Shown here one piece after another: positions 2,878 to 27,437 of a stretch of 45,978 nt of DNA. The translations under genes were made by a program, and so were the position numbers. The DNA comes from Arcobacter sp. CECT 8985 (GTDB lineage: Bacteria; Campylobacterota; Campylobacteria; Campylobacterales; Arcobacteraceae). The stretch covers positions 1 to 45,978 of the forward strand of contig NZ_PDKC01000023.1 in NCBI RefSeq assembly GCF_004116495.1. Direction: 5' to 3'. Below the pieces are notes generated by a model that was not told where the DNA came from, did no database searches, and saw only the letters and a list, made by a program, of their open reading frames with translations. The stretch's first letter is position 1; each line of letters opens with the position of its first letter.

Positions 2878-3420
2878 TTATTTCTTTGGGAAATCCTTAA
2901 TTATTGTAATAACTAATTCACCAACTGTAATTCCAAATTTCTTCATTTTTGAATGATTTATAATAACTCCATCTTCTTGAAGATGAAGCCAATCTTTTAC
3001 ATTTAAATTAATTGTACTTCCATTATAAGGAACTTTCATTGTATAATCCATCATAACTGTATTTCCATTTACACTCATAACAGCATCACCAATAATATCT
3101 CCAGCTGTTCCAATATATTTACCATCAGATGTTGGTTTTAGTGTCCAAACTCTTGTTTGTTTTTCTCCATCATTATAAACAAATTTTTCATCTAATGTCC
3201 CTACTCCATTCTCATCCCAACTACCAACCAAATCACCTTTGAAAGTTCTTATAATTTTTCCACTCATATCTTTAACTAACCCATAAGCAGTTAGCTTTCC
3301 ATTAAAATAATTTTCTGGTACAAACTTTGGTGTTGTATTATCAAAATCACTAAGTTTCATTGAACTACATCCTCCTAATAATAAACTCAATCCGATTATG
3401 AACAATATTTTAAAACTCAT
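2878..3420 (-). CDS. DUF3833 family lipoprotein
   Basis: A 180-residue lipoprotein. A short hydrophobic signal peptide ends in a lipobox (LLGGC, Cys18), so it should be lipidated and membrane-anchored. The rest matches what I know of DUF3833: a mostly beta, lipocalin-like fold with the NYFNGKLTAYGLVKD start and alternating charged and hydrophobic strands. Its function is not established. It overlaps the upstream Cfa-like gene by 4 bp (ATGA), so it is the last gene of the eight-gene operon. DUF3833 genes repeatedly accompany Cfa-like, DUF1365 and FAD-enzyme genes in proteobacteria, which suggests a role in handling or sensing the modified lipid. That role is inferred from context only. Confidence 0.75.
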   Translation of the reverse strand: MSFKILFIIGLSLLLGGCSSMKLSDFDNTTPKFVPENYFNGKLTAYGLVKDMSGKIIRTFKGDLVGSWDENGVGTLDEKFVYNDGEKQTRVWTLKPTSDGKYIGTAGDIIGDAVMSVNGNTVMMDYTMKVPYNGSTINLNVKDWLHLQEDGVIINHSKMKKFGITVGELVITIIKDFPKK

Positions 3421-4640
3421 ATTAATCCTTTATTTAAATATATATTTTGATCTCTTGAAAAAACCAATTGAACAAGATTTATATTTCTTGTAATAAATGC
3501 TGCTTCACAATAGTTTAAATACATTTTCCACATTCTTATAAAATAATTGTCAAACCCTAACTCTTTTACTTTATCAATTTTATTTATAAAATTTTCATGC
3601 CATATATTAAGTGTTTTTGCATAATCTTCTGTAAACTCTTCCATATGTAATAAATTTAATCTAGTATGTTTTGAAGTTACATCTAAAATTTTTCCAACAC
3701 TTGGAAGATGTCCTCCTGGAAAAATATATTTTTGTATAAAATCAGTACTTTTTAAATACTGCTTATATCTACAATCAGGCATTGTTATAACTTGCATTGC
3801 TAAAACACCACTTGGTTTTAATAAACTTTGGCATTTTTTAAAAAATACATCAAAATACTCTTTTCCAACAGCTTCAAACATTTCAACAGCAATTATTGCA
3901 TCATACTTTCCAGATAAATCTCTGTAATCTTTAAGTAAAATATCAATTGCCTCATCAATATTTTCTTCTTTAAATCTTTTTAAACATAAAGCCATTTGCT
4001 CTTTGCTTAAAGTAACCGTTGTTACTTTACATCCTTTTTCTTTTGCTAAATGAATAGCCATAGATCCCCAACCTGAACCAATTTCTAAAACATGGGAATT
4101 TTTATTAATTCTTAATTTATCAGCTAATAATGAAATCTTTCTTTTTTGGGCTTCAAATAAATCTTCATCTTTATTTTTAAATACTGCACTTGAATACATC
4201 ATAGTTTCATCTAAAAATAGTTTAAAAAAATCGTTTGATAAGTCATAATGTTCGGATATATTTTTTCTTGAATTTGTTTTTGAGTTTTTTCTTAAAAGGT
4301 GTTTTATTTTATTAAATTGTGGAAATAAGTTTATTAATTTATTATTTCTTTCATCACTACTTAATGTACCAAGTTTACTTGAATTTAATAATGCAATAGA
4401 AATCAGATTTGTTAAGTTATTAGTTTCAAAATCTTCATCCATATAACTTTCAGCAAAACCTATATCTCCATAAAGTAATACTCTTTTAAAAAAGTTATTA
4501 CTTTTTATATTAAGTGTTGCTTTTGGATTAGTGTTATCTCCAAATAACTCTTTTTGCCCATTTGAAAAAGTAACTTCCAATGTTCCTTTTTCTATTTTAG
4601 ATAAAAATCCATAACCGAACTTTTCCCAAAACTTTTTCAT
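3417..4640 (-). CDS. Cfa-like S-adenosylmethionine-dependent fatty acyl methyltransferase
   Basis: A 407-residue member of the cyclopropane fatty acid synthase/mycolic acid cyclase family. The lipid-facing HYDLSNDFF motif (131-139) and the SAM-binding loop VLEIGSGWGS (184-193) are clear, as is the FIQKYIFPGGHLPS segment. Two residues differ from E. coli Cfa when aligned by eye: the bicarbonate-site Cys139 (YSCA) is Ser151 here (YSSA), and His266 (LLHTIG) is Gln283 (AMQVIT). The Glu of MFEHVG is kept (MFEAVG). This suggests the subgroup that travels with DUF1365 and FAD enzymes rather than a housekeeping cyclopropane synthase. Some relatives methylate unsaturated acyl chains, for example in furan fatty acid synthesis. 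It overlaps the upstream DUF1365 gene by one base. Confidence 0.85.
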   Translation of the reverse strand: MKKFWEKFGYGFLSKIEKGTLEVTFSNGQKELFGDNTNPKATLNIKSNNFFKRVLLYGDIGFAESYMDEDFETNNLTNLISIALLNSSKLGTLSSDERNNKLINLFPQFNKIKHLLRKNSKTNSRKNISEHYDLSNDFFKLFLDETMMYSSAVFKNKDEDLFEAQKRKISLLADKLRINKNSHVLEIGSGWGSMAIHLAKEKGCKVTTVTLSKEQMALCLKRFKEENIDEAIDILLKDYRDLSGKYDAIIAVEMFEAVGKEYFDVFFKKCQSLLKPSGVLAMQVITMPDCRYKQYLKSTDFIQKYIFPGGHLPSVGKILDVTSKHTRLNLLHMEEFTEDYAKTLNIWHENFINKIDKVKELGFDNYFIRMWKMYLNYCEAAFITRNINLVQLVFSRDQNIYLNKGLI

Positions 4641-5386
4641 TAAAATCTCCTTGTTTCATCTTGCTTTGTAGGACTATGCCAACTTAAGCCTTTTTTATAT
4701 AATTTTATTGCATGCAAAAAAGTTCTAGTAACTACAAAAAATGTTAAAAACCAATATTTAAAAAATAGTTTTAAGATGTTTTTACTAGTAAATTTCAATG
4801 CTTTCCCACTAAAAACAGCTGTAAGGCTCTTTTGCTCTTTTTCATAATAATCTATTTTTAAAGCAAATTTTTCTGGTTTTAAATTTAATGTAAAAAAATA
4901 TGTACCATCTCTATTAAAAAAAGGTGAAACATACATATCTTTTGTAATCTTTGCTTCATAGTTATCATTATTTTTTTGTTCAAGTTTTAAATCATATATA
5001 ATATTTCCACCATTATAATTATGCACTTCTGCTAACATATAAATAGGGATTTCATCTTTTATTACTAAAAGTAAACTAATTGGATTAAATACAAAATTAC
5101 AAACTCTTGGAAGAGTTATAAATCTTAAAGTTACATTTTGTTTGTCTATTTCAAATTTTTGAAGCAATTCATCTACATTTTGCATAAAATCAATATTTTT
5201 CCCAAAATGATCCTTTGCATAAAATGAGAATAAATTTAATTTATTTATAGAAAAATATTTTTGTTTTGATAAAGTATTAAAATTATTTAAATCAATATCT
5301 AATAAGTAAAATCCATATGTAAATTCATGAACTTTAGGTTCAAATCTTTTGTGAAATATTTTACCTTCTATAAATTGATGACTCAT
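4640..5386 (-). CDS. DUF1365 family protein
   Basis: A 248-residue protein of the DUF1365 family, recognised from its N-terminal pattern (IEGKIFHKRFEPKVHEFTY), the RVCNFVFNPISL block and the YVSPFFNRDGTYFF block. There is no signal peptide. A hydrophobic stretch near residues 203-222 (LFFKYWFLTFFVV) may touch the membrane. No reaction is established that I can name. The family is nearly always found between an FAD-dependent oxidoreductase and a Cfa-like methyltransferase, exactly as here, with a 4-bp overlap upstream and one base downstream. I infer a partner role in acyl-chain modification. Confidence 0.8.
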   Translation of the reverse strand: MSHQFIEGKIFHKRFEPKVHEFTYGFYLLDIDLNNFNTLSKQKYFSINKLNLFSFYAKDHFGKNIDFMQNVDELLQKFEIDKQNVTLRFITLPRVCNFVFNPISLLLVIKDEIPIYMLAEVHNYNGGNIIYDLKLEQKNNDNYEAKITKDMYVSPFFNRDGTYFFTLNLKPEKFALKIDYYEKEQKSLTAVFSGKALKFTSKNILKLFFKYWFLTFFVVTRTFLHAIKLYKKGLSWHSPTKQDETRRF

Positions 5387-6618
5387 AACTCACATCCAAA
5401 CTCTTTTGCTATTGTATTTGCACTGTAAAGACCATCTTCATGAAAACCATATCGCCAATAAGCACCTGCAAAATAAGTATTATTTTTCCCATTTATTAAA
5501 TCTCTTTTCTCTTGTGCATCTATTGCTTTTCTATCAAACTGTGGATGTTCATAAGATATCTTTTCTATATACTGTTTAAAATCATAATCTTCATTTAATG
5601 TTACAAAATAATCTTTTTTTGATTTTAAATTTTGCAATCTATTTATCCAATATGATAAACTAACACTTGATCTATTTTCATTATTTGTATAATTCCATGC
5701 TGCATAAATTTTTTCATCTTTATATAAAGCTTTCTTATCATTGTGTAAAACAGCTTTATTTTCTTTATATTTAAAACAAGAAAGAATATCTATCTCATTT
5801 TTTGTTGCATCTTCTAGAAGTTCTAAAGTTTGAGGAGCATGACAAGCAAAAATAACCTTATCATAAACAAACTCTTCATTAAAACTATTTTTTAAAATTA
5901 CTTTATTCTCTTCTCTTTTTACTTTTACAATATCACTATTTAATATGATTTTTCCAGATATTTTTTTTGATATTTTATTTACATAATTAATTGAGCCATC
6001 ACTAACTGTTAGCCATTGATGATGAGTATTTACTCCAAGTAGTCCATGGTTTTTAAAAAATTGAAGAAATGTTTTTGCAGGAAAGTCATTCATTTTTGTA
6101 TCAGGAGTTGACCAAATAGCTGCACCCATTGGTAAAATATATCTTTGTTTAAATACTTCAGAAAAATCTAATAAATATTCTCCTAAATTTTTATTTAAAT
6201 CATCACTATTTGTATCTAAATCACTATTTGCTTTTTTATTAAATTTTATAATATCAAATATCATTTTGTAGTGCTTATATGAAAATAGATTTTTTTTCTG
6301 AAAGAAAAGACCTTTTAAAGATTCTCCATTATATGCTACATTTGATTTTTTATCCCAAAATCCAAAACTCATATCACTATTTTCAATTTTTACATCTAGT
6401 TGTTTAAATAGTTTTGTCAATAGTGGATATGTTTCATTATTAAAAACTAAAAAGCCTGTATCTACTCCAAAGGTTTTGTTATTTTCTTGAACAATAGTAG
6501 TTCTTGCATGTCCACCAAGTCTTGGTTCTTTTTCATACAAATCAACTTCATATTTTTTACTAAGTAAATATGCACTAGCTAAACCACTTATTCCTGCACC
6601 AATAACTGCTATTTTCAT
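5383..6618 (-). CDS. FAD-dependent oxidoreductase, NAD(P)-binding amine-oxidase-like (COG2907 type)
   Basis: A 411-residue flavoprotein. An N-terminal Rossmann motif (VIGAGISGLASAYLL, residues 5-19) is followed by the second FAD motif YEKEPRLGGHART. The C-terminal FAD contact region reads TYFAGAYWRYGFHEDGLYSA. It belongs to the amine oxidase/phytoene desaturase-like superfamily. In this neighbourhood such proteins are thought to desaturate or oxidise acyl chains together with the adjacent Cfa-like methyltransferase. In alphaproteobacterial furan fatty acid synthesis a flavoprotein of this general kind acts on the methylated chain. The exact substrate here is unknown. It overlaps lipocalin and DUF1365 genes by 4 bp on each side, implying translational coupling. 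Confidence 0.85.
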   Translation of the reverse strand: MKIAVIGAGISGLASAYLLSKKYEVDLYEKEPRLGGHARTTIVQENNKTFGVDTGFLVFNNETYPLLTKLFKQLDVKIENSDMSFGFWDKKSNVAYNGESLKGLFFQKKNLFSYKHYKMIFDIIKFNKKANSDLDTNSDDLNKNLGEYLLDFSEVFKQRYILPMGAAIWSTPDTKMNDFPAKTFLQFFKNHGLLGVNTHHQWLTVSDGSINYVNKISKKISGKIILNSDIVKVKREENKVILKNSFNEEFVYDKVIFACHAPQTLELLEDATKNEIDILSCFKYKENKAVLHNDKKALYKDEKIYAAWNYTNNENRSSVSLSYWINRLQNLKSKKDYFVTLNEDYDFKQYIEKISYEHPQFDRKAIDAQEKRDLINGKNNTYFAGAYWRYGFHEDGLYSANTIAKEFGCEL

Positions 6619-7133
6619 TTGTATCGTCCTTGCTTATCTTGTTTTGTATATATCAATGTATTTAAATCAATATGATTTTTTAATTTGTTTAAAATTAAAT
6701 CTAATTTTTTCTTTTTCATTTTTGGAGTTCGACTCATTATCCAAATGTGTTCATTATCTTCATCTGTAACTAATGCACTTTTGTAATCTTTATCTATATA
6801 TGAAATATTATATCTTTTTGTAAAAATCCAAAAATATGTCATATCAATTTTTGCAACTGAATTTTTATTTGTAGAAGCACTTTCTCCTACACCCTTATAC
6901 AAAATAAGCTTTCCACCTATTTTATTTTCAAAGCATCTATTGAAAATTTTATATTCATTATCTTTTAATACATATTCTACACTTGATGCAACACAATTTT
7001 CTTGATAATGATTTGGAGTTCTAGCTATTTCATACCATAAACCACTAAATTTTTTTATACTTACAAACTTTAAAGGTGGCATAGCATAAACATTTAATGA
7101 AAAAAAAGTGATTAAAAGTAATCTTAATAACAT
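6615..7133 (-). CDS. Lipocalin family protein (Blc-like)
   Basis: A 172-residue lipocalin. A signal peptide (about residues 1-17, ending VYA) is followed by the lipocalin signature GLWYEIARTPNHYQENC (31-47) with the invariant Gly-x-Trp. The second conserved block (YFWIFTKRYNISYIDKDYKSALV) and the IMSRTPKM block are also present. There is no lipobox Cys, so it should be periplasmic and soluble rather than a lipoprotein like E. coli Blc. Lipocalins bind fatty acids or lysophospholipids; with the neighbouring enzymes this suggests carriage of modified lipids. A clear ribosome site (AGGAGA) lies before the ATG. There are 63 bp between it and the transporter gene upstream, the largest gap in the operon. 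Confidence 0.85.
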   Translation of the reverse strand: MLLRLLLITFFSLNVYAMPPLKFVSIKKFSGLWYEIARTPNHYQENCVASSVEYVLKDNEYKIFNRCFENKIGGKLILYKGVGESASTNKNSVAKIDMTYFWIFTKRYNISYIDKDYKSALVTDEDNEHIWIMSRTPKMKKKKLDLILNKLKNHIDLNTLIYTKQDKQGRYK

Positions 7134-7196
7134 CTAATTCTCCTATAAAAACATTTTATTGAAAATCAAAGCTATTTTGTACTTGTTTTAAGTTAG

Positions 7197-8453
7197 TTAA
7201 TATTTTAAATGTTTTGATTTTAATATATTTATTACAGCTATAATTTTTAAAGCTATAGGAAGAATACCATAAAGAGAAGATAAAACAATTTGAGAGGTTT
7301 GGGATTGGGGATTTTCATCAAAACCAAATAAACCTAAAATTACGAAGCTAACACCTACAGCTGTAGCAAAAGCAAGTTTTGTTAACATTGCCCAAAAGCT
7401 AAATAAAACTCCAGTAAATTGACTATTTTCATTTGTAAATTCTTGTGCAATATCAGCTTGAATAGAAGAAGGTAAAAACATATCAGCTCCTAAACTAAAT
7501 CCAGAAAATATACAAACAATTAAAAAAGCAGTAAAATCTCCTTGAGATAAAAATGGAACATATAAAAATACGGTTGAAGCTAAAATTATTGAATAAACCC
7601 AACTATTTTTCTTACCAAATTTTTTAGAAATAATATACCAAAAAGGTAAAGCTAATACCCCCGAAAGAAAATAGACTAAAAGAAGTAAACCTATTGAGTC
7701 TTTTTTATCTATTACATTTGTAACAAAAAGAATAAAAAGTGTAGAAGGAATCGCATTTGCTACATTATTTATAAAAAATGCAAAAAAAAGTCTTTTAAAT
7801 CTATAACTGTTATCTTTTAAAAAGACTAAAGACTCTTTTATTGATATATTTGTATTTATTTTTTTTGTATTTTTTGTTCCTATTATCAAAAGTAAAAGTA
7901 AAATAGGAAGAGAGAATAAAACTAAATCCCACATTAATAATAATGATTTATATTCATCTTTTGAGATATTAAAATAGTATGGCAAAAATAAAGCAAGAAC
8001 AATTGCAATTATTGTAAAAAATTCTCTTGAAGATGCAAGTAAATTTGTATGATTTTTATCATAACTAATCTCTGCACTCAAACTAAAATAAGCAATAGTA
8101 ATAAAACTCCAACCAGTATATACTAATATTGAAAAAAACAGTAAATATAATGCATTTACATTTTTAATTGGATGAGTAAGAAAATAAAAAGAAAAAAGTA
8201 TAAGTATTGAGCCAATTATTATAAAAATATATCTTTTAAAATACCTATCACTTAATCTTCCAATAATGGGATCTGTAAAAACATCAATAATTCTTGCAAC
8301 AAAAATAACAACACCAACTAATGCAATATCAATTCCAATATCTTTTGTATAAAATGTAGGTAAATATATATACAAAGGCAATCCCAAAATTGCTAAAGGA
8401 ATTGCAAATAATGAATAAGACAATAGTTTAAATGTTGGTAGATTTTTATTCAT
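7197..8453 (-). CDS. MFS transporter, GPH (glycoside-pentoside-hexuronide) type
   Basis: A 418-residue polytopic membrane protein with about 12 hydrophobic segments. The GPH-family cytoplasmic loop is visible as DVFTDPIIGRLSDRYFKRY (57-75), where a catalytic-type Asp precedes PxxGxxSD. Family members are cation symporters for sugars, and the MFSD2 branch moves lysophospholipids. Placed inside a lipid-modification operon, lipid or lysolipid movement is as likely as sugar transport; this is inference. It overlaps the NTF2-like gene by 8 bp. The same gene type accompanies COG2907/DUF1365/Cfa clusters in other proteobacteria as far as I recall. Confidence 0.8.
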   Translation of the reverse strand: MNKNLPTFKLLSYSLFAIPLAILGLPLYIYLPTFYTKDIGIDIALVGVVIFVARIIDVFTDPIIGRLSDRYFKRYIFIIIGSILILFSFYFLTHPIKNVNALYLLFFSILVYTGWSFITIAYFSLSAEISYDKNHTNLLASSREFFTIIAIVLALFLPYYFNISKDEYKSLLLMWDLVLFSLPILLLLLIIGTKNTKKINTNISIKESLVFLKDNSYRFKRLFFAFFINNVANAIPSTLFILFVTNVIDKKDSIGLLLLVYFLSGVLALPFWYIISKKFGKKNSWVYSIILASTVFLYVPFLSQGDFTAFLIVCIFSGFSLGADMFLPSSIQADIAQEFTNENSQFTGVLFSFWAMLTKLAFATAVGVSFVILGLFGFDENPQSQTSQIVLSSLYGILPIALKIIAVINILKSKHLKY

Positions 8454-8883
8454 TTAAACTTATCTTTTTTCTTATAATTTTTAAGATAGATCCTAATAAT
8501 GGTATCTTTTCATAAATATTACTTGCTGCATCCCAATAATCAATATGAGATACTATTTTTGCATCATTATTAAATTTAACAATACTAACACCCGTAAAAC
8601 TGCTTTGTTTACTATTATTTTTCATTTTATATACAAATTCCCACTCTATAAAAGATTGACTATCATTTGTAGAAAAACTCTTTATATTAAATTTTGCACT
8701 ATATAAGGTTTTATACATATCTTGAAAAACATCATATATCTTTTCAACTCCAATGACCTTTTGAAAAGGATCTTGAAAAATTGAGCTTTCATCAAAAAAA
8801 AACCTATAATTATCATAGGGAGTATTTTTATTATTATTTTCAAAAAAGCAGCAGTAATTTTTTGTATAAGTTTCTATATTCAT
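8446..8883 (-). CDS. NTF2-like / SnoaL-like fold protein
   Basis: A 145-residue protein with the layout of a cone-shaped NTF2-like domain: an N-terminal helix, the segment SSIFQDPFQKVIGVEKIYDVFQDMY (53-77), then strands ending in KIVSHIDYWDAASNIYEKIPLLG. The FQDPFQKVIG and HIDYWD motifs resemble the family that includes steroid isomerases and polyketide cyclases. It may be an isomerase or a ligand-binding protein. No catalytic mechanism can be assigned. It overlaps the SDR gene by 4 bp and the transporter gene by 8 bp, so it is translated as part of the lipid operon. Confidence 0.7.
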   Translation of the reverse strand: MNIETYTKNYCCFFENNNKNTPYDNYRFFFDESSIFQDPFQKVIGVEKIYDVFQDMYKTLYSAKFNIKSFSTNDSQSFIEWEFVYKMKNNSKQSSFTGVSIVKFNNDAKIVSHIDYWDAASNIYEKIPLLGSILKIIRKKISLNE

Positions 8884-9635
8884 TTCAAAAGTCTTTTAGT
8901 TATATTTAGAGATATTGAATATGGCAATATCTTTAAAAGTCTTAGAAAAAAAGCTAATTTAAAAGGAAATCTAATTTCAAAACCTTTGTTTTTTTCTAAT
9001 TGTGTAGCTATAATATTTGCGGCATCAATTGGTTCTAAAAGTTGAGGCATTTCAAAATCATTTTTTTTGGTAAGCCGTGTATTAACAAAACCGTGATTTA
9101 TTATTTGTAAATCAATATATTTTCTTTTTAATTCAGGTTGAATAGATTGTAATATATTCACAAGTGCTGCTTTTGAAGCACTATATGCTCCTCCATAAGG
9201 AAGCCCAAAATCACTGGATAAACTACAATTAAATACCCACTTGCCATATCCTTGTTTCTCAAAAAAATCTTTTAGGTTTTTTATTACTCTAATTGCACCT
9301 AAATAATTAATATTAGTCATTTGTTCGAAATCTTTTATAATCCATTCATCAATACTAAATGCATTATATACAGCAGCATTATAAAAAAGTAAATCAATTT
9401 TTAGATTTTGTGATTTTATTTTTTCAAGTGAATCCATAATTGAAACTTCATCACTGACATCAAGATTAAGCAATATCAATTTTTCATTATAAGTGTACAT
9501 TAAAGACATTAACTCTTTTGATTTTGTTGCACTTCGTGCACTTACAATTACAGTATGCCCTTTATTTAGCCAGATTTTAACAAGCTCTAAACCTATTCCA
9601 CTACTTGCACCTATTATCCAAATATTTTTAGACAT
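8880..9635 (-). CDS. Short-chain dehydrogenase/reductase
   Basis: A classical SDR of 251 residues. The NAD(P)-binding glycine motif is GASSGIG (9-15), the NNAG equivalent is YNAA (85-88), the catalytic Ser lies in NCSLSSDFG, and the Tyr-Lys pair is YSASK (151-155). A basic residue (Arg34 in VSARS) after the second strand favours NADPH; this is inferred. The C-terminus ends in hydrophobic and basic segments (KLAFFLRLLKILPYSISL) that may sit on the membrane. It is the first gene of the eight-gene operon, with a good ribosome site (AAAGGA) 6 bases before the ATG. The substrate is unknown but is likely an acyl or lipid carbonyl given the neighbours. Confidence 0.85.
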   Translation of the reverse strand: MSKNIWIIGASSGIGLELVKIWLNKGHTVIVSARSATKSKELMSLMYTYNEKLILLNLDVSDEVSIMDSLEKIKSQNLKIDLLFYNAAVYNAFSIDEWIIKDFEQMTNINYLGAIRVIKNLKDFFEKQGYGKWVFNCSLSSDFGLPYGGAYSASKAALVNILQSIQPELKRKYIDLQIINHGFVNTRLTKKNDFEMPQLLEPIDAANIIATQLEKNKGFEIRFPFKLAFFLRLLKILPYSISLNITKRLLK

Positions 9636-9678: not shown

Positions 9679-9730
9679 AGAGGTTTTTTAGTAGTATTTT
9701 TTTGTTAATTAATATCAAAAAAAGTAAGCA

Positions 9731-9841
9731 AAAAAAAAGGCCTTCAAAGAAGGCCTTTTTACACACAAGGAAACATAAAAAAAATCTTGTAGAAATTTAA
9801 TTCTACCAAAAATAAGTAAGTCCGTACTCTTGCTTATTTAT
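9731..9841 (-). ncRNA. Candidate small RNA 1 (tandem pair)
   Basis: A predicted RNA of about 111 nt, unknown to me. It has a TATAAT box with an upstream TG, a 5' hairpin (arms 9811-9820 and 9829-9838, loop containing CGGA), and a second hairpin (9789-9794 with 9801-9806). Next come a CU-rich unpaired block holding TTTCCTTGTGTG and a perfect 12-bp terminator. Promoter, first hairpin and the CU-rich block are nearly identical in the second copy about 190 bp upstream. The second hairpin and terminator stems differ in sequence but not in form, which argues for selection on structure. The CU-rich block complements Shine-Dalgarno sequences, as in trans-acting small RNAs. A five-codon ATG frame (MFPCV) lies in the block but has no ribosome site. 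Confidence 0.75.
9734..9760 (-). terminator. Rho-independent terminator of small RNA 1
   Basis: A perfect 12-bp stem (arms 9734-9745 and 9749-9760, core AAGGCCTTC) closes a 3-nt loop. On the minus strand it is followed by nine consecutive T residues. It is one of the strongest terminators in the window and separates the small RNA from the lipid operon. Confidence 0.9.
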
Positions 9842-9847
9842 GTTAAA

Positions 9848-9902
9848 ATTATAACAGTTCATAATTAACTGTTTTTGAATAGAAAATTAATGATTAGTTA
9901 AT
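9848..9902 (-). promoter_or_regulatory. Promoter and two operator-like sites of small RNA 1
   Basis: The -10 box TATAAT is at 9848-9853 (extended by an upstream TG). Immediately upstream is an inverted repeat AACAGTT-N7-AACTGTT (9853-9873). A second inverted repeat ATTAA-N7-TTAAT lies at 9886-9902, with its centre about 31 bp (three helical turns) from the first. Both sites recur at the same spacing before small RNA 2. This suggests a dimeric regulator binding one face of the DNA. No regulator can be named. Confidence 0.65.
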
Positions 9903-9915
9903 AGAAATTTTAGGC

Positions 9916-9940
9916 AAAAAAAAACCTCCCGTTAGGAGGT
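9916..9940 (-). terminator. Rho-independent terminator of small RNA 2 and probably of the urea operon
   Basis: The stem ACCTCC/GGAGGT (9924-9929 with 9935-9940) has a 5-nt loop and is followed on the minus strand by a run of nine T residues. It is the first clear terminator downstream of ureG, so it could also end the long urt-ure transcript. Confidence 0.85.
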
Positions 9941-10035
9941 CTTTACACACAAGGAAACATAAAATTTTCATAGGAAAAAATTCGCTATGTAATTTATTAA
10001 GCATAAATAAGTAAGTCCGCTTCTTGCTTATTCAT
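9916..10035 (-). ncRNA. Candidate small RNA 2 (tandem pair)
   Basis: The second copy of the pair, about 120 nt. The 5' hairpin has arms 10006-10015 and 10023-10032, the same arms as copy 1, with loop AAGCGGA on the minus strand. A different second hairpin (CATAG/CTATG, 9969-9973 with 9985-9989) takes the place of copy 1's second stem. The conserved CU-rich block follows, then a 6-bp GC-rich terminator. Its promoter begins directly after the ureG stop, so it is encoded between the urea operon and small RNA 1, all on one strand. It might be a processed or independent 3' product of the urea transcript, but its own TATAAT box favours an independent gene. Confidence 0.75.
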
Positions 10036-10041
10036 AATAAA

Positions 10042-10097
10042 ATTATAACAGTTAACGATTAACTAAATTTCAACAAAAAGTTAATGAATAGTTAACT
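10042..10097 (-). promoter_or_regulatory. Promoter and two operator-like sites of small RNA 2
   Basis: The -10 box TATAAT is at 10042-10047 with an upstream TG. AACAGTT next to it is followed by ATTAACT, as in copy 1 (10047-10064). The distal site AGTTAA-N7-TTAACT (10079-10097) is a perfect 6-bp inverted repeat that overlaps the ureG stop codon. The spacing from -10 to distal site (33 bp) is identical in both copies. Confidence 0.65.
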
Positions 10098-11829: not shown

Positions 11830-13530
11830 CTAAAACATAAAATATTTTTTTGCCATTGGCACACTTGTTACATAATTTGATTCAATTAATTCACCATCAA
11901 CAGTTACATCATATGTTTCAGGATCAACTTGTATATCTCCAATAAAATTGTTTAATTTCATATCTTTTTTACCAATATCTCTTGTGTTTTTAACACTTAA
12001 TACTTTTTTATTTATTTCTAATTTTTCTTTTAAATCATGACTTGCCACTTTAGAAGTAAAGATTGCACTTGTTTTAGCACTTGCTTTTCCTAAACTACCA
12101 AACATTGGTCTATACATATTTGGTTCTGGAGTGGGAATTGAAGCATTACTATCACCTAACATGGCTAAAGCAATAAATCCACCTTTTATTATAATTTCTG
12201 GTTTTACTCCAAAAAATGCCCTATTCCATAAAACTAAATCTGCCATTTTACCAACTTCAATACTTCCAACATACTCATCAATTCCACATGCAATTGCTGG
12301 ATTTATTGTATATTTTGCAACAAATCTTTTTATTCTTTCATTATCACATAATTCATCATCTTCTTTTAAAGCACCTCTTTGTCTTTTCATAGAATCTGCA
12401 ACTTGCCATGTTCTAATTATTACTTCACCAACTCTTCCCATTGCTTGAGAATCACTACTTGTAATAGATATTGCTCCAAGATCATGTAATACATCTTCTG
12501 CTGCAATTGTTTTACCTCTAATTCTACTCTCTGCAAAACTAACATCTTCAGGGATTTTAGGACTTAGATGGTGACATACCATAAGCATATCAAGATGCTC
12601 CTCAATTGTATTTTTTGTATATGGCAAAGTTGGATTTGTACTAGAAGGAAGAATATTAGATAATCCTGCAACTTTCATAATATCAGGAGCATGTCCACCA
12701 CCAGCACCTTCACTATGAAATGTATGAATTGTTCTATTTTTAAAACTATTAACTGTATTATCAACAAATCCAGACTCATTTAAAGTATCTGTATGAATTG
12801 CAACTTGTACATCAAAATCATCTGCAACTTTTAAACAATTGTCAATTGCATTTGGTGTACTACCCCAATCTTCATGTAGCTTTAAACCCATTGCTCCAGA
12901 TTCAACTTGCATTTTTAATGCTTCATAACTTGAGCTATTTCCTTTTCCCATAAAACCAAAATTTAAAGGTAAATCATCAACACTTTGTATCATTTTTGAG
13001 ATATTCCACTCTCCTGGAGTACAAGTTGTTGCATTAGTTCCAGTATTTGGCCCAGTTCCTCCACCAATCATTGTTGTAACTCCACTTGCAAGTGCTTCAT
13101 CTATTTGACCTGGACTTATAAAGTGTATATGAGAATCAATTCCACCTGCTGTTATTATTTTACCTTCTGCTGAAAGTATTTCAGTGTTTGCACCAATTTC
13201 TAGACCTTCAGTAATTCCATCACAAAGATTTGGATTTCCTGATTTGCCAATTGCACTAATAATTCCATCTTTTATTGCAATATCAGCTTTGTAAATACCT
13301 GTATAATCAATTATTACTGCATTTGTAATAATCAAATCTGCAACATTAGTAGCAGTTGGACTTTGAGCCATTCCATCTCTTATTGTTTTTCCACCACCAA
13401 ATTTACTCTCTTCACCATATGTTGTAAAATCTTTTTCAATTTTTGCAATCAATGAAGTATCAGCAAGTCTAAATCTATCATTTGTCGTTGGTCCATACAT
13501 TGAAGCGTATTTTTCTTTTGATATCTTCAT
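11830..13530 (-). CDS. ureC: Urease alpha (catalytic) subunit
   Basis: The 566-residue catalytic subunit that hydrolyses urea to ammonia and carbamate. Every active-site residue is present and falls at the K. aerogenes number: His134 and His136 (SHIHF), the carbamylated Lys217 with His219 (GLKLHEDWG), His246, His272, Cys319-His320 on the mobile flap (MVCHHL), Arg336 and Asp360. The dinuclear nickel site should therefore be complete. The gene follows ureAB after 1 bp. Helicobacter would call this subunit UreB; the general bacterial name ureC is used here. Confidence 0.98.
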
Positions 13531-24711: not shown

Positions 24712-25250
24712 TATTTTCTAACTTGTTGTAAAAGTTTAAAACATCCAATTATGATAATAAGCAAAACATAAAACATCTGATAAATATCAAGTGACTTTTG
24801 AGCTATAATAAGATGTATTGTTATTAAAAGTAAAGCTAAATATATCACTTTATGAAATTTATTATACTTTCTAAAAAGTTTTTTTGTAGAAGTTAAAGCC
24901 ATAAAAAGTAAGAGTATAAAAGCAATCATTCCTAAATAAATAAAAGGTTTCTTGGTTGTCTCTTTAAAAATAAAATGAATATCAAATTGTGCATCTAAAA
25001 CAATAAAATTTAAAAAATGTAAAAATGCATAAAAGAAACCAAAAAGTCCTATCATTCTTCTATATTTTAATAAATTTACATATTTTTTAATTAATGTAAT
25101 TAAAATAGTGAAAAATAACAAGACTACTGAAATCACACCTGTAAAAGTATAGATATACTTTATTGGATCTATTACATTTTGTATTATAAATAAATTATAA
25201 GATGAAATAAATATAGGTATTAATAAAAGTACAAAAATTAATATTTTCAC
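24708..25250 (-). CDS. msrQ: Heme-binding membrane subunit MsrQ of the methionine sulfoxide reductase
   Basis: A 180-residue integral membrane protein with about six hydrophobic helices, matching the ferric-reductase-like YedZ/MsrQ family. Candidate heme-ligand histidines are visible in FYAFLHFLNFI, KFHKVIYLAL and LLITIHLI. It feeds electrons from the quinone pool or cytoplasmic flavin carriers to MsrP in the periplasm. It is slightly shorter than E. coli MsrQ (about 211 residues). Its gene abuts msrP with a one-base overlap, the standard order. Confidence 0.9.
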   Translation of the reverse strand: MKILIFVLLLIPIFISSYNLFIIQNVIDPIKYIYTFTGVISVVLLFFTILITLIKKYVNLLKYRRMIGLFGFFYAFLHFLNFIVLDAQFDIHFIFKETTKKPFIYLGMIAFILLLFMALTSTKKLFRKYNKFHKVIYLALLLITIHLIIAQKSLDIYQMFYVLLIIIIGCFKLLQQVRKY

Positions 25251-26209
25251 TAAAAATCCTTTGTTAAATCCATTCCTTTATATAAATGTGCGACTTGTTT
25301 TTCATAGCCATTAAACATCAAAGTTCTTTGTTTAAAAAAATTTCCCAATAAACGTTCTCTTGCTTGAGACCATCGTGGATGATCAACATTTGGATTTACA
25401 TTTGCATAAAATCCATATTCATTTGAGTTTTCTTTTTGCCAAGTATTTAAAGGTTGTTTTTCAACAAAAGATATCTTTGAAATAGATTTTATAGATTTAA
25501 AACCATATTTCCAAGGGACAATAAGTCTAATAGGTGCTCCATTTTGCTTAGGCATTTTTGAACCATATAAACCAACAGCCATTAATGTCAATTCATTCAT
25601 TGCTTCATCCATTCTCAAGCCTTCCACATAAGGATAAGAGATTGTAGAAAAAGCTCCTCTTGCTTGATCAGGGAACATTTTTTCATCATATAATGTTTCA
25701 AACCTAATATATTTTGCACTTGATAAAGGTTGTAAATATTTAATTAATTTTGATAATTCAAAACCAATCCAAGGAACTACCATTGACCAACCTTCAACGC
25801 ATCTAAATCTATAAATTCTCTCTTCTAATGCAAATTTTTTCATTATATCATCTAAATCTATTGTCATTGGCTTTTTTACTAAACCATCAACTTTTATTTT
25901 CCAGTTATCTGTATTTAAAGTATGAGCCATATCTTTTACTTTTCCTTGACTCGTAGTAAACTCATAAAAGTTATTATGTGAAGTTATTTGTTCATAGGTA
26001 TTTAACTTAAGATTATTTAAATTTTTATCTTTTTTATAATCAAGATTTTTTACAGGAATATTCTCTTTTGCAAAAAGTTCAACTAATGCTGATGAAGATA
26101 CAATACTTGCAGCACCTAATTTAATAAAACTTCTTCTTTTATTAAAAAGATTTTCAGGTGTAACATCATTTTCATTAATTTGCCATTTCTTTGATTTTAT
26201 ATATTTCAT
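25250..26209 (-). CDS. msrP: Periplasmic protein-methionine-sulfoxide reductase MsrP (molybdoenzyme)
   Basis: A 319-residue molybdenum-cofactor enzyme of the sulfite oxidase fold that repairs oxidised methionine in envelope proteins. A twin-arginine signal is present (KRRSFIKLG, residues 24-32), and Cys137 in YRFRCVEGWSMVVPW is the Mo ligand. The N-terminal MKYIKSKKWQINENDVTPE block is typical of the family. A possible start at 26242 has no ribosome site; the ATG at 26209, six bases after AAAGGG, is chosen. Expressed with msrQ. Moco genes are not in this window. Confidence 0.94.
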   Translation of the reverse strand: MKYIKSKKWQINENDVTPENLFNKRRSFIKLGAASIVSSSALVELFAKENIPVKNLDYKKDKNLNNLKLNTYEQITSHNNFYEFTTSQGKVKDMAHTLNTDNWKIKVDGLVKKPMTIDLDDIMKKFALEERIYRFRCVEGWSMVVPWIGFELSKLIKYLQPLSSAKYIRFETLYDEKMFPDQARGAFSTISYPYVEGLRMDEAMNELTLMAVGLYGSKMPKQNGAPIRLIVPWKYGFKSIKSISKISFVEKQPLNTWQKENSNEYGFYANVNPNVDHPRWSQARERLLGNFFKQRTLMFNGYEKQVAHLYKGMDLTKDF

Positions 26210-26267
26210 AACAAACCCTTTATTCTTTATTAGTTTATACAATAATTATAAAGGATTTGTGTAGTAT

Positions 26268-27437
26268 TTATTTGTTAATTAATATAATTTTGAGATATTT
26301 TGCTACAAAAAGCAATAAAATTGCAATTAATGCAACTGCTGAGAAATTAATCCAAAAGATATAACTTAAATGTGTATTCAAACTAAATGATGCAAAAATT
26401 CTAATAAATAAAACAACTTGAAGTAATACAATTACTAGTTTAAAGATTATGCTTTCGACTTTTAAAAATTTATAAATATATGTCAAAACAAAAGTTGAAA
26501 TAAATCCTAGTCCAAGTATATGTAAAGATGCTTTTTCAAATAAAAAATCAATGTGAAAAATCTCAAAACAATTTTTTAAAGCTAGTACAAAAAATGAAAT
26601 AGCAACCCAATATATAGCAATATAAAAAGCTTTTAATTTGAAATCAACTTTAAATATTGGTAATTTCCATTTATATATTTCACGACAAATAAATAAAAAT
26701 ATTACTGTATTTATTATCAATTCAAAATATATATTTTCATAAAAATGTGAAATCATTTTTATTAATATTAGTGTGAAAAACTCACTATTTAAAAATCTAG
26801 ATTTATTAATTTTATAATCTTTAATTTCTGATTTAGTATATGCAAATATTAAATTCTGAGTTAAGACAAAAACAATTGGGAAAAAATAAAAATAAAAGCC
26901 TATATATGTTCCAATTCTTTTTAAAATAAAAGAATAATCTAATTCATAAAAAGATAAATAAAAAAATACATGAGAAATCAATGCAATAAAAAGAAAAAAG
27001 AGTATCCAATAAGCATCAGCTTTATTTTTTATATTACTTTCATAACTCATTATAAGAAGTAATTTAAAAGATAAAAATTGCACTGATAAAAGGGCTAAAG
27101 TAAAAAATATTATATATTCATTTGAAAAAAATAAAGAAGATAAAAATCCTAAACTACTGAAAAAATATATATAAAAATGCAACATATATATTTTTTTATC
27201 AACCTTTTCAATATTTAAAAGTTTAGGAAATAGATCATATAATATACCTATAAAAGATTGAATAAAAACAATATGTAACATTGAATAAGTATGATACGTA
27301 AGTATTGTTACACTTAAATTTACCATTTTAGAGTATGAAGCGAAAAGTAATCCTATAAATAGTATAAAAAATATAAGTCCACTTAATAAAAATGGATTTG
27401 AAGGTTGGCTTGTAAAAGATTTAAACCAATTTGTCAT
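26268..27437 (-). CDS. Polytopic membrane protein, NnrS-like
   Basis: A 389-residue protein made of about 12 hydrophobic segments with few soluble loops. The segment ASLHILGLGFISTFVLTYIY resembles the ALHALxxGAFGTM region of NnrS proteins, which respond to nitric oxide and protect against it in proteobacteria. The usual RVSLGHTGR motif after that region is not seen, so this is a diverged member or only a relative. His residues in HTYSMLHIVF could be heme ligands. It lies between msrP and tpx, with a ribosome site (AGGAG) placed directly after a perfect palindrome. It may form a stress-response unit with msrPQ, 58 bp downstream. Confidence 0.5.
   Translation of the reverse strand: MTNWFKSFTSQPSNPFLLSGLIFFILFIGLLFASYSKMVNLSVTILTYHTYSMLHIVFIQSFIGILYDLFPKLLNIEKVDKKIYMLHFYIYFFSSLGFLSSLFFSNEYIIFFTLALLSVQFLSFKLLLIMSYESNIKNKADAYWILFFLFIALISHVFFYLSFYELDYSFILKRIGTYIGFYFYFFPIVFVLTQNLIFAYTKSEIKDYKINKSRFLNSEFFTLILIKMISHFYENIYFELIINTVIFLFICREIYKWKLPIFKVDFKLKAFYIAIYWVAISFFVLALKNCFEIFHIDFLFEKASLHILGLGFISTFVLTYIYKFLKVESIIFKLVIVLLQVVLFIRIFASFSLNTHLSYIFWINFSAVALIAILLLFVAKYLKIILINK

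Follow-up and report, generated by a model that had tools for sequence, protein, structure and literature searches.

A putative furan fatty acid operon of Arcobacteraceae shares a promoter motif with photolyase operons that encode a LytS/LytTR two-component system

We analysed a 45,978-nt stretch of the draft genome of Arcobacter sp. CECT 8985 (contig NZ_PDKC01000023.1 of an assembly that is 99.96% complete in 82 contigs; hereafter, the window), in which positions 2878-9635 of the minus strand hold eight complete open reading frames (ORFs), all in the same direction, that form a putative lipid modification operon. Read from the promoter, they encode a short-chain dehydrogenase/reductase (SDR), an NTF2-like protein, a GPH-type transporter, a lipocalin, an Amino_oxidase flavoprotein, a DUF1365 protein, a cyclopropane fatty acid synthase (CFA)-like enzyme and a DUF3833 protein (Table 1). 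For all eight, the Pfam assignments, with the flavoprotein in Amino_oxidase, agree with the families named in a preliminary description made from the sequence alone. That description had also called the genes overlapping, which is accurate for neighbours that share 1-8 bases and fails only at a 63-base gap ahead of the lipocalin gene; the promoter motif described below has an internal copy here, which lies within the gap except for 4 of its bases. The G+C content of the operon (0.235-0.265 in 2-kb segments) is near that of its flanks (0.245-0.316).

The CFA-type, flavin adenine dinucleotide (FAD)-dependent flavoprotein and DUF1365 genes adjoin each other and represent all three families of the furan fatty acid pathway, UfaM (which we take to be a member of the CFA family), UfaD and UfaO, respectively. 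As described in the available parts of the original report, UfaM, a methylase dependent on S-adenosylmethionine (SAM), UfaD, an FAD-binding, phytoene-desaturase-like enzyme, and the DUF1365 protein UfaO produce a methylated furan fatty acid on phospholipids, the oxygen of the furan ring coming from O2, and three contiguous genes of Rhodopseudomonas palustris suffice for the synthesis (Lemke 2020, PMC7380195). The earlier assignment to lipid modification was right, and with these three families side by side the pathway can be named as one of the furan fatty acid type. Models of CrtD and of the crtI family were among the weak matches of the UfaD-like protein of the window, which is 38-42% identical to plasmid-borne proteins (n = 40 among the matches listed), several of them annotated beside DUF1365. 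A scan of genome contigs with this protein as the query found no relative; with an alphaproteobacterial alignment as the query, it gave 80 proteobacterial UfaD loci (Rhodobacter sphaeroides and R. palustris not included), with a UfaO-like gene in 80/80 and a UfaM-like gene in 74/80, and UfaO follows UfaD at the 79 UfaO coordinates listed. The predicted structure of the window UfaO (mean predicted local distance difference test score, 92.9) consists of a beta barrel and C-terminal helices, and its best PDB matches are calycin-like, namely, OlmO (Z = 8.9, root-mean-square deviation 3.6, 128 aligned residues), nitrobindin (Z = 8.8) and fatty-acid-binding proteins (Z = 5.5-8). Foldseek detected no PDB match to this model at E ≤ 0.001, and the sequence gave a single PDB match, at chance level; the predicted likeness to nitrobindin-like and fatty-acid-binding calycins is modest and served as a lead only. 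As for the remaining genes, RSP1087-1089 of R. sphaeroides are presumably an SDR, a lipocalin and a transporter. These other three genes of the R. sphaeroides operon are dispensable for furan fatty acid synthesis (PMC7380195, available parts), which leaves the earlier proposal that the lipocalin and the transporter export or deliver the product with little weight.

Among 397 sampled Campylobacterota genomes, DUF1365 was found in 23, of which 20 belong to Arcobacteraceae; two additional genomes of the same genus (G397 and G398) bring the number of operon-bearing genomes in the family to 22. In all 22, the genes for the SDR, the transporter, UfaD, UfaO, UfaM and DUF3833 are kept in one order, and the arrangement is therefore far beyond chance; the NTF2-like or lipocalin genes are absent from some of these operons. 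The full gene set was also identified in a genome of another family (G371), and partial sets in two others (G060 and G195). UfaD and UfaO adjoin UfaM in the 24 Campylobacterota stretches that contain UfaM. In two genomes of the same genus, G241 and G256, the operon is absent beside an otherwise conserved helicase gene, and because these genomes keep this gene together with the small-RNA-like units described below, the operon appears to be an optional insert, or to have been lost, at one place. One DUF1365 gene (G291, contig C34, 62337-63026) has a single in-frame stop, and the rest of its operon looks complete.

The earlier observation that the operon lacks its usual stress sigma factor in the window holds for the whole draft genome. 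The ChrR profile had no match at E ≤ 1, and no extracytoplasmic function (ECF) sigma factor was found, the single Sigma70_r2 match (E ≤ 1) being in a 627-aa frame (region 4 was not part of the search); contig C30 encodes a photolyase. Across the 397 genomes of the phylum, no ChrR match exceeded the cut-off. The relation to sigma-E/ChrR regulons that the preliminary description had pointed out for other proteobacteria was borne out as well: a ChrR-like gene was identified in 39 of the 80 proteobacterial UfaD stretches, many of which have short flanks, and in 31 of the 55 with full flanks, vs. 0 of the 27 Campylobacterota stretches, of which 25 hold UfaD. At plasmid loci, the count was 6 of 9, which is partly circular because the hidden Markov model (HMM) was built from four of these nine loci. 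Annotated examples of a ChrR-type gene beside the ufa set come from Pseudoalteromonas, Azospirillum and Rhizobium tropici, and the ufa locus of Paracoccus zhejiangensis is annotated with a sigma factor and an anti-sigma factor. The Vibrio cholerae promoter TGATC-N18-CGTAT had no match in the window with spacers of 16-20 (chance expectation, 0.01), other sigma-E consensus forms not having been tried. A MerR protein with a B12-binding domain was not found in the Arcobacter genome, where the only two MerR_1 matches are in frames of 118 and 128 aa that are too short for a second domain.

Comparison of the upstream regions of 23 loci, including the window, identified a bipartite motif, AAYTRACA-N9-TACHAAAAA, ahead of the first operon gene, with the gap fixed at 9 bases; it is conspicuous in AT-rich DNA that has otherwise diverged, and two conserved C residues 13 bp apart hold most of its information. 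The copy at the front of the window operon is the only exact match in its genome. A position weight matrix (PWM) was trained on the best-fitting 14 of the 23 ufa fronts (SDR promoters), and because of this choice only untrained sites count as support. On 28 loci, the PWM gave 55 matches of at least 11 bits vs. 15 on the reversed sequence, and it recovered 7 of the 9 untrained ufa fronts (one ahead of a ThiD-ThiE-SDR operon; loci L043 and L049 were missed). A motif copy is located 40-49 nt ahead of the lipocalin gene in 13 of the 19 other operons in which a lipocalin ORF was called. Of the 72 sites of at least 15 bits with a downstream ATG, 60 have a TATAAT-like box, which starts 21-23 nt after the TAC in 39, and the second motif box therefore lies near -35. 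In the window, six sites reached 8.5 bits vs. five on the reversed sequence, and only scores above 9.8 bits separate the two; besides one site inside a gene (10.2 bits), these are the three sites in Table 1. The msrP gene is a probable regulon member, and its true start is probably located 33 bases inside the called ORF; a site nearly identical to the motif copy before it is present in another genome (G207).

Table 1. Genes and motif copies of the window that bear on the analysis
Feature	Position	Strand	Evidence
DUF3833 lipoprotein	2878..3420	-	DUF3833 210 bits
UfaM-like SAM methyltransferase, CFA family	3417..4640	-	CMAS 291 bits
UfaO-like DUF1365 protein, candidate O2-dependent furan former	4640..5386	-	DUF1365 182 bits
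UfaD-like flavoprotein, candidate fatty acid desaturase	5383..6618	-	Amino_oxidase 61.8 bits; NAD_binding_8
Lipocalin	6615..7133	-	Lipocalin_2 97.6 bits
Internal motif copy, 2 mismatches	7173..7200	-	PWM 13.9 bits; 39 bases to lipocalin start
GPH-type MFS transporter	7197..8453	-	MFS_2 191 bits; GPH model 106.9 bits, below cut-off 231
NTF2/SnoaL-like protein	8446..8883	-	SnoaL_2 35.1 bits (cut-off 27)
SDR oxidoreductase, operon gene 1	8880..9635	-	adh_short 122 bits
Operon promoter motif, exact match	9685..9712	-	PWM 31.9 bits, training site; 49 bases to SDR start
MsrP, protein-methionine-sulfoxide reductase catalytic subunit	25250..26242	-	NF003767 459 bits (cut-off 207), model begins at residue 15
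Motif copy before msrP, 2 mismatches	26255..26282	-	PWM 22.2 bits

In 104 genomes of the family, the exact pattern had 46 matches vs. 5 for the backward control, and 26 vs. 5 once the ufa fronts, the source of the pattern, were excluded. Twenty of the 46 are ahead of ufa operons (at one of these, 326 nt separate the match from the called SDR start) and 13 ahead of photolyase, ferrochelatase, second-lipocalin or DUF523/DUF1722 operons; of the others, 3 precede an amine-oxidase-like gene, 1 ThiD and 1 CbiX, 3 are located elsewhere and 5 inside genes. The second lipocalin gene of the Arcobacter genome is preceded by a 20.8-bit site, and in relatives, PWM copies also precede DPRP photolyase-like and YfcH-like genes. 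Around photolyases and kinases, 60 loci gave 24 PWM matches vs. 7 on the reversed sequence, many of the 24 before glutathione peroxidase, SRPBCC, EAL-like and flavoprotein genes. Since the motif is common to photolyase, glutathione peroxidase, ferrochelatase and MsrP genes, the earlier hint at a response to light or peroxide gains support. A one-mismatch site of the Arcobacter genome (contig C5, 11692) was dropped because no gene is near (822 nt), and eight sites inside genes (loci L105, L109, L118, L119, L120, L124, L125 and L130) were treated as chance matches. In several relatives, ferrochelatase and CbiX genes carry the motif (loci L303, L300, L267 and others), which would fit removal of photosensitising porphyrins.

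In the Arcobacter genome, a 23.7-bit motif site precedes the photolyase operon, which encodes a CrtD-like flavoprotein, a LytS-type kinase (His_kinase, PF06580), a LytTR response regulator (Response_reg-LytTR domains), ThiD, a DUF523/DUF1722 protein and the photolyase. The LytTR protein, encoded in this motif-bearing operon, has the only DNA-binding regulator domain that Pfam identified among its six genes, and the presence of the motif on an operon that encodes the kinase and the regulator suggests autoregulation. The first 130 residues of the kinase are mostly hydrophobic and show no obvious additional domain, a hint that the sensor is embedded in the membrane. The kinase was identified in 72 of the 104 family genomes, including 22/22 in which the operon was found. 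Among the 42 family genomes in the phylum sample, it is present in 30 of the 34 photolyase-positive genomes vs. 1 of the 8 photolyase-negative ones, and in 29 of these 30 its start and the photolyase match are no more than 12 kb apart. The photolyase surroundings of the 34 genomes (35 stretches of 7-20 kb) gave 44 PWM matches vs. 9 on the reversed sequence. A motif match within 75 nt before a gene near the photolyase was placed in 23 of the 30 kinase-positive vs. 0 of the 4 kinase-negative genomes (Fisher p = 0.007; this test, as well as the binomial tests, ignores the kinship of the genomes). In four genomes (G291, G341, G448 and G455), the motif precedes a gene row that runs from DUF523/DUF1722 to the flavoprotein and the kinase and, in three of these, through the response regulator.

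These findings make it fairly probable, in our assessment, that the ufa operon makes a furan fatty acid within a photo-oxidative regulon in which a photolyase-linked LytS/LytTR system replaces sigma-E/ChrR. The gene content, the motif, its shared sites and the co-occurrence of the kinase were read from the sequences themselves; the Ufa chemistry would follow by analogy with the enzymes of Lemke 2020. By that analogy, UfaM would methylate a cis-unsaturated chain on membrane phospholipids, UfaD would desaturate the methylated chain to a methylated diene, and UfaO would close the furan ring using O2, yielding a methylated furan fatty acid that may act as a membrane antioxidant; the SDR, NTF2-like, transporter, lipocalin and DUF3833 proteins would be accessory. 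The operon would be co-regulated with the photolyase, the second lipocalin and MsrP, and in relatives also with glutathione peroxidase, ferrochelatase and DPRP photolyase-like genes, the members sharing the promoter motif AAYTRACA-N9-TACHAAAAA with its second box near -35. The activator would most likely be the LytTR response regulator, binding the motif and driven by the LytS-type membrane kinase, and the two-component system, encoded in the photolyase operon and presumably autoregulated through the motif of that operon, would stand in for sigma-E/ChrR; the signal may be light, singlet oxygen or the state of the membrane. A stronger version could equally prove right or wrong: here, Arcobacteraceae would control the classic singlet-oxygen regulon (furan lipid, photolyase, glutathione peroxidase, ferrochelatase, MsrP and lipocalins) via the photolyase-linked LytS/LytTR system, whose membrane sensor would read photo-oxidative membrane damage, amounting to a full exchange of sigma-E/ChrR with a promoter code of its own. 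Compared with the preliminary description, lipid modification, the sigma-E/ChrR relation and the hint at light or peroxide stand, whereas that account was incomplete, given that the pathway can be named, the genome encodes a photolyase and the sigma factor has apparently been replaced, and export is a weak part of it.

Several observations weigh against the LytS/LytTR furan regulon as formulated here, and some of them bear on alternatives. LytTR sites are generally direct repeats about 21-22 bp apart; the motif boxes, with their fixed 9-nt gap, do not show such a repeat, no further half-site was seen, and because of this apparent mismatch in spacing we only infer the link between the LytTR protein and the motif. 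Moreover, 7 of the 30 kinase-positive photolyase regions have no placed motif match, and seven photolyase stretches had been chosen because an exact motif match lay there. The spacing, together with the linkage of the kinase to photolyase, such that the co-occurrence of the kinase and the motif may simply follow photolyase, would fit the same regulon and motif under another DNA-binding activator, with the two-component system merely a co-regulated member. We regard this as possible but unlikely, considering that the four photolyase-positive genomes without the kinase have no placed motif and that Pfam identified no other DNA-binding regulator domain in the photolyase operon of the Arcobacter genome. 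The motif itself also has limits. With up to two mismatches, there was no enrichment (45 matches vs. 77 backward in the window's genome, G000, and 49 vs. 79 in G207; total 94 vs. 156), PWM scores of up to 20.5 were found inside genes too, so that inexact sites rest on their position, and the five exact matches inside genes equal the whole backward control. In addition, the -10 candidate in the window (GATAAT) begins 18 nt past the TAC and not 22-23. The lack of enrichment at two mismatches and the AT-rich background are what would be expected if the motif were an ordinary AT-rich core promoter and no regulon marker; this is very improbable given the contrast of 46 exact matches to 5 backward, the location of 33 of the 46 at ufa, photolyase, ferrochelatase or lipocalin operons, and the two conserved C residues that carry most of the information. 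Finally, weak partial ChrR matches (20-28 bits, below the cut-off) occur in 8 of the 397 phylum genomes, including the ufa-bearing G296, G309 and G341.

With respect to the product, the likeness to the R. sphaeroides Ufa enzymes (RSP2144, RSP1091 and RSP1090) is one of protein family. Apart from the window UfaM, its genome has only weak CFA-type matches (four, at 24-29 bits), so this protein could serve as an ordinary Cfa, in which case the operon might make another modified lipid, such as a cyclopropane, branched or methylated unsaturated chain. However, UfaM scored 309 and 277 bits on two Cfa equivalog models, below their cut-offs of 600 and 400, and has Q at the position of H266 and S at that of C139 of E. 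coli Cfa. Among 103 operon-type UfaM proteins, a count biased by their selection with an HMM from six operon-type proteins, H266 is replaced by Q in 103/103 and C139 by S or A in 100/103, whereas E239, I268 and Y317 are kept. True cotton cyclopropane synthases also have Q at H266 and S at C139 (PMC3132707, available parts); we therefore rejected these residues as proof of UfaM activity and treat the changes as a mark of the group. Considering the equivalog scores, the uniform H266 replacement and the adjacency of UfaD and UfaO to UfaM in the 24 Campylobacterota stretches, a product other than a furan fatty acid seems improbable.

The furan fatty acid pathway itself is already known; the wiring, the motif and the two-component system are the new part. 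The operon resembles the R. sphaeroides and R. palustris ufa genes in its SAM-dependent methylase, FAD-binding desaturase and DUF1365 protein, and R. palustris also in that RPA2569-2571 are contiguous in the same ufaD-ufaO-ufaM order; it is longer than the Rhodobacter/Rhodopseudomonas set, adding the NTF2-like and DUF3833 genes. In R. sphaeroides, the product increases on loss of chrR and the genes respond to singlet oxygen (PMC7380195, available parts), whereas the genome of the window yielded neither ChrR nor an ECF sigma factor. A plasmid cluster of Pseudoalteromonas shioyasakiensis (locus L166) has NTF2-like, SDR, FAD protein, DUF1365, CFA and DUF3833 genes, together with DUF523/DUF1722 and phrB, but is headed by sigma factor and ChrR genes and includes DUF2878 and chalcone isomerase-like genes; unlike the window, the stretch shown has no annotated MFS transporter or lipocalin. 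In V. cholerae, blue light raises expression of the CFA-like gene VC1122, and phr belongs to a light-responding operon, but control is by ChrR/sigma-E and a MerR protein (PMC5241685, available parts), and the promoter motif of that system is absent from the window. The Arcobacteraceae two-component system shares its His_kinase PF06580 and Response_reg-LytTR domains with known LytS/LytTR systems and differs in its linkage to photolyase and a CrtD-like flavoprotein, a role that did not appear in the open-licence PMC literature at the level of titles and abstract openings, which also yielded nothing on furan fatty acids, LytTR or a photo-oxidative regulon in Arcobacteraceae. The available part of the nearest work, on Campylobacter jejuni under violet-blue light (PMC9426514), does not mention photolyase, fatty acids or LytTR. 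If the LytS/LytTR furan regulon is confirmed, furan fatty acid synthesis would extend to a Campylobacterota family, and the photo-oxidative regulon of a non-phototroph would gain a concrete, testable regulator and promoter code. It would also be a clean case of regulon rewiring, with the same targets under a different regulator in another phylum, and would provide a candidate light or singlet-oxygen sensor that belongs to neither the sigma-E/ChrR nor the B12-MerR type.

Two small-RNA-like units lie in tandem at window positions 9730-10060 (minus strand), in the region that separates ureG from the operon; no Rfam match was found there. Each unit consists of a promoter box, TGTTATAAT, a conserved core, AAGCAAGA..CGGACTTACTTATT, a conserved TTTTATGTTTCCTTGTGTGTAAA and a terminator-like hairpin. 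They were found in all six genomes of the genus, in two copies in G000, G207 and G256 and in one copy in G241, G397 and G398. At loci L059 (G256) and L060 (G241), the helicase gene and the units are retained without the operon, and we therefore rejected the idea that the units belong to the operon. A weaker match to the small-RNA query (L033 in G256 and L034 in G207), which resembles the units in its promoter but differs in the core of its hairpin, may represent another small RNA of this type. A 5' ureB small RNA (Rfam RF02514, 53.1 bits) is located at 13103-13376 on the plus strand, antisense to the urease gene at 11830-13530.

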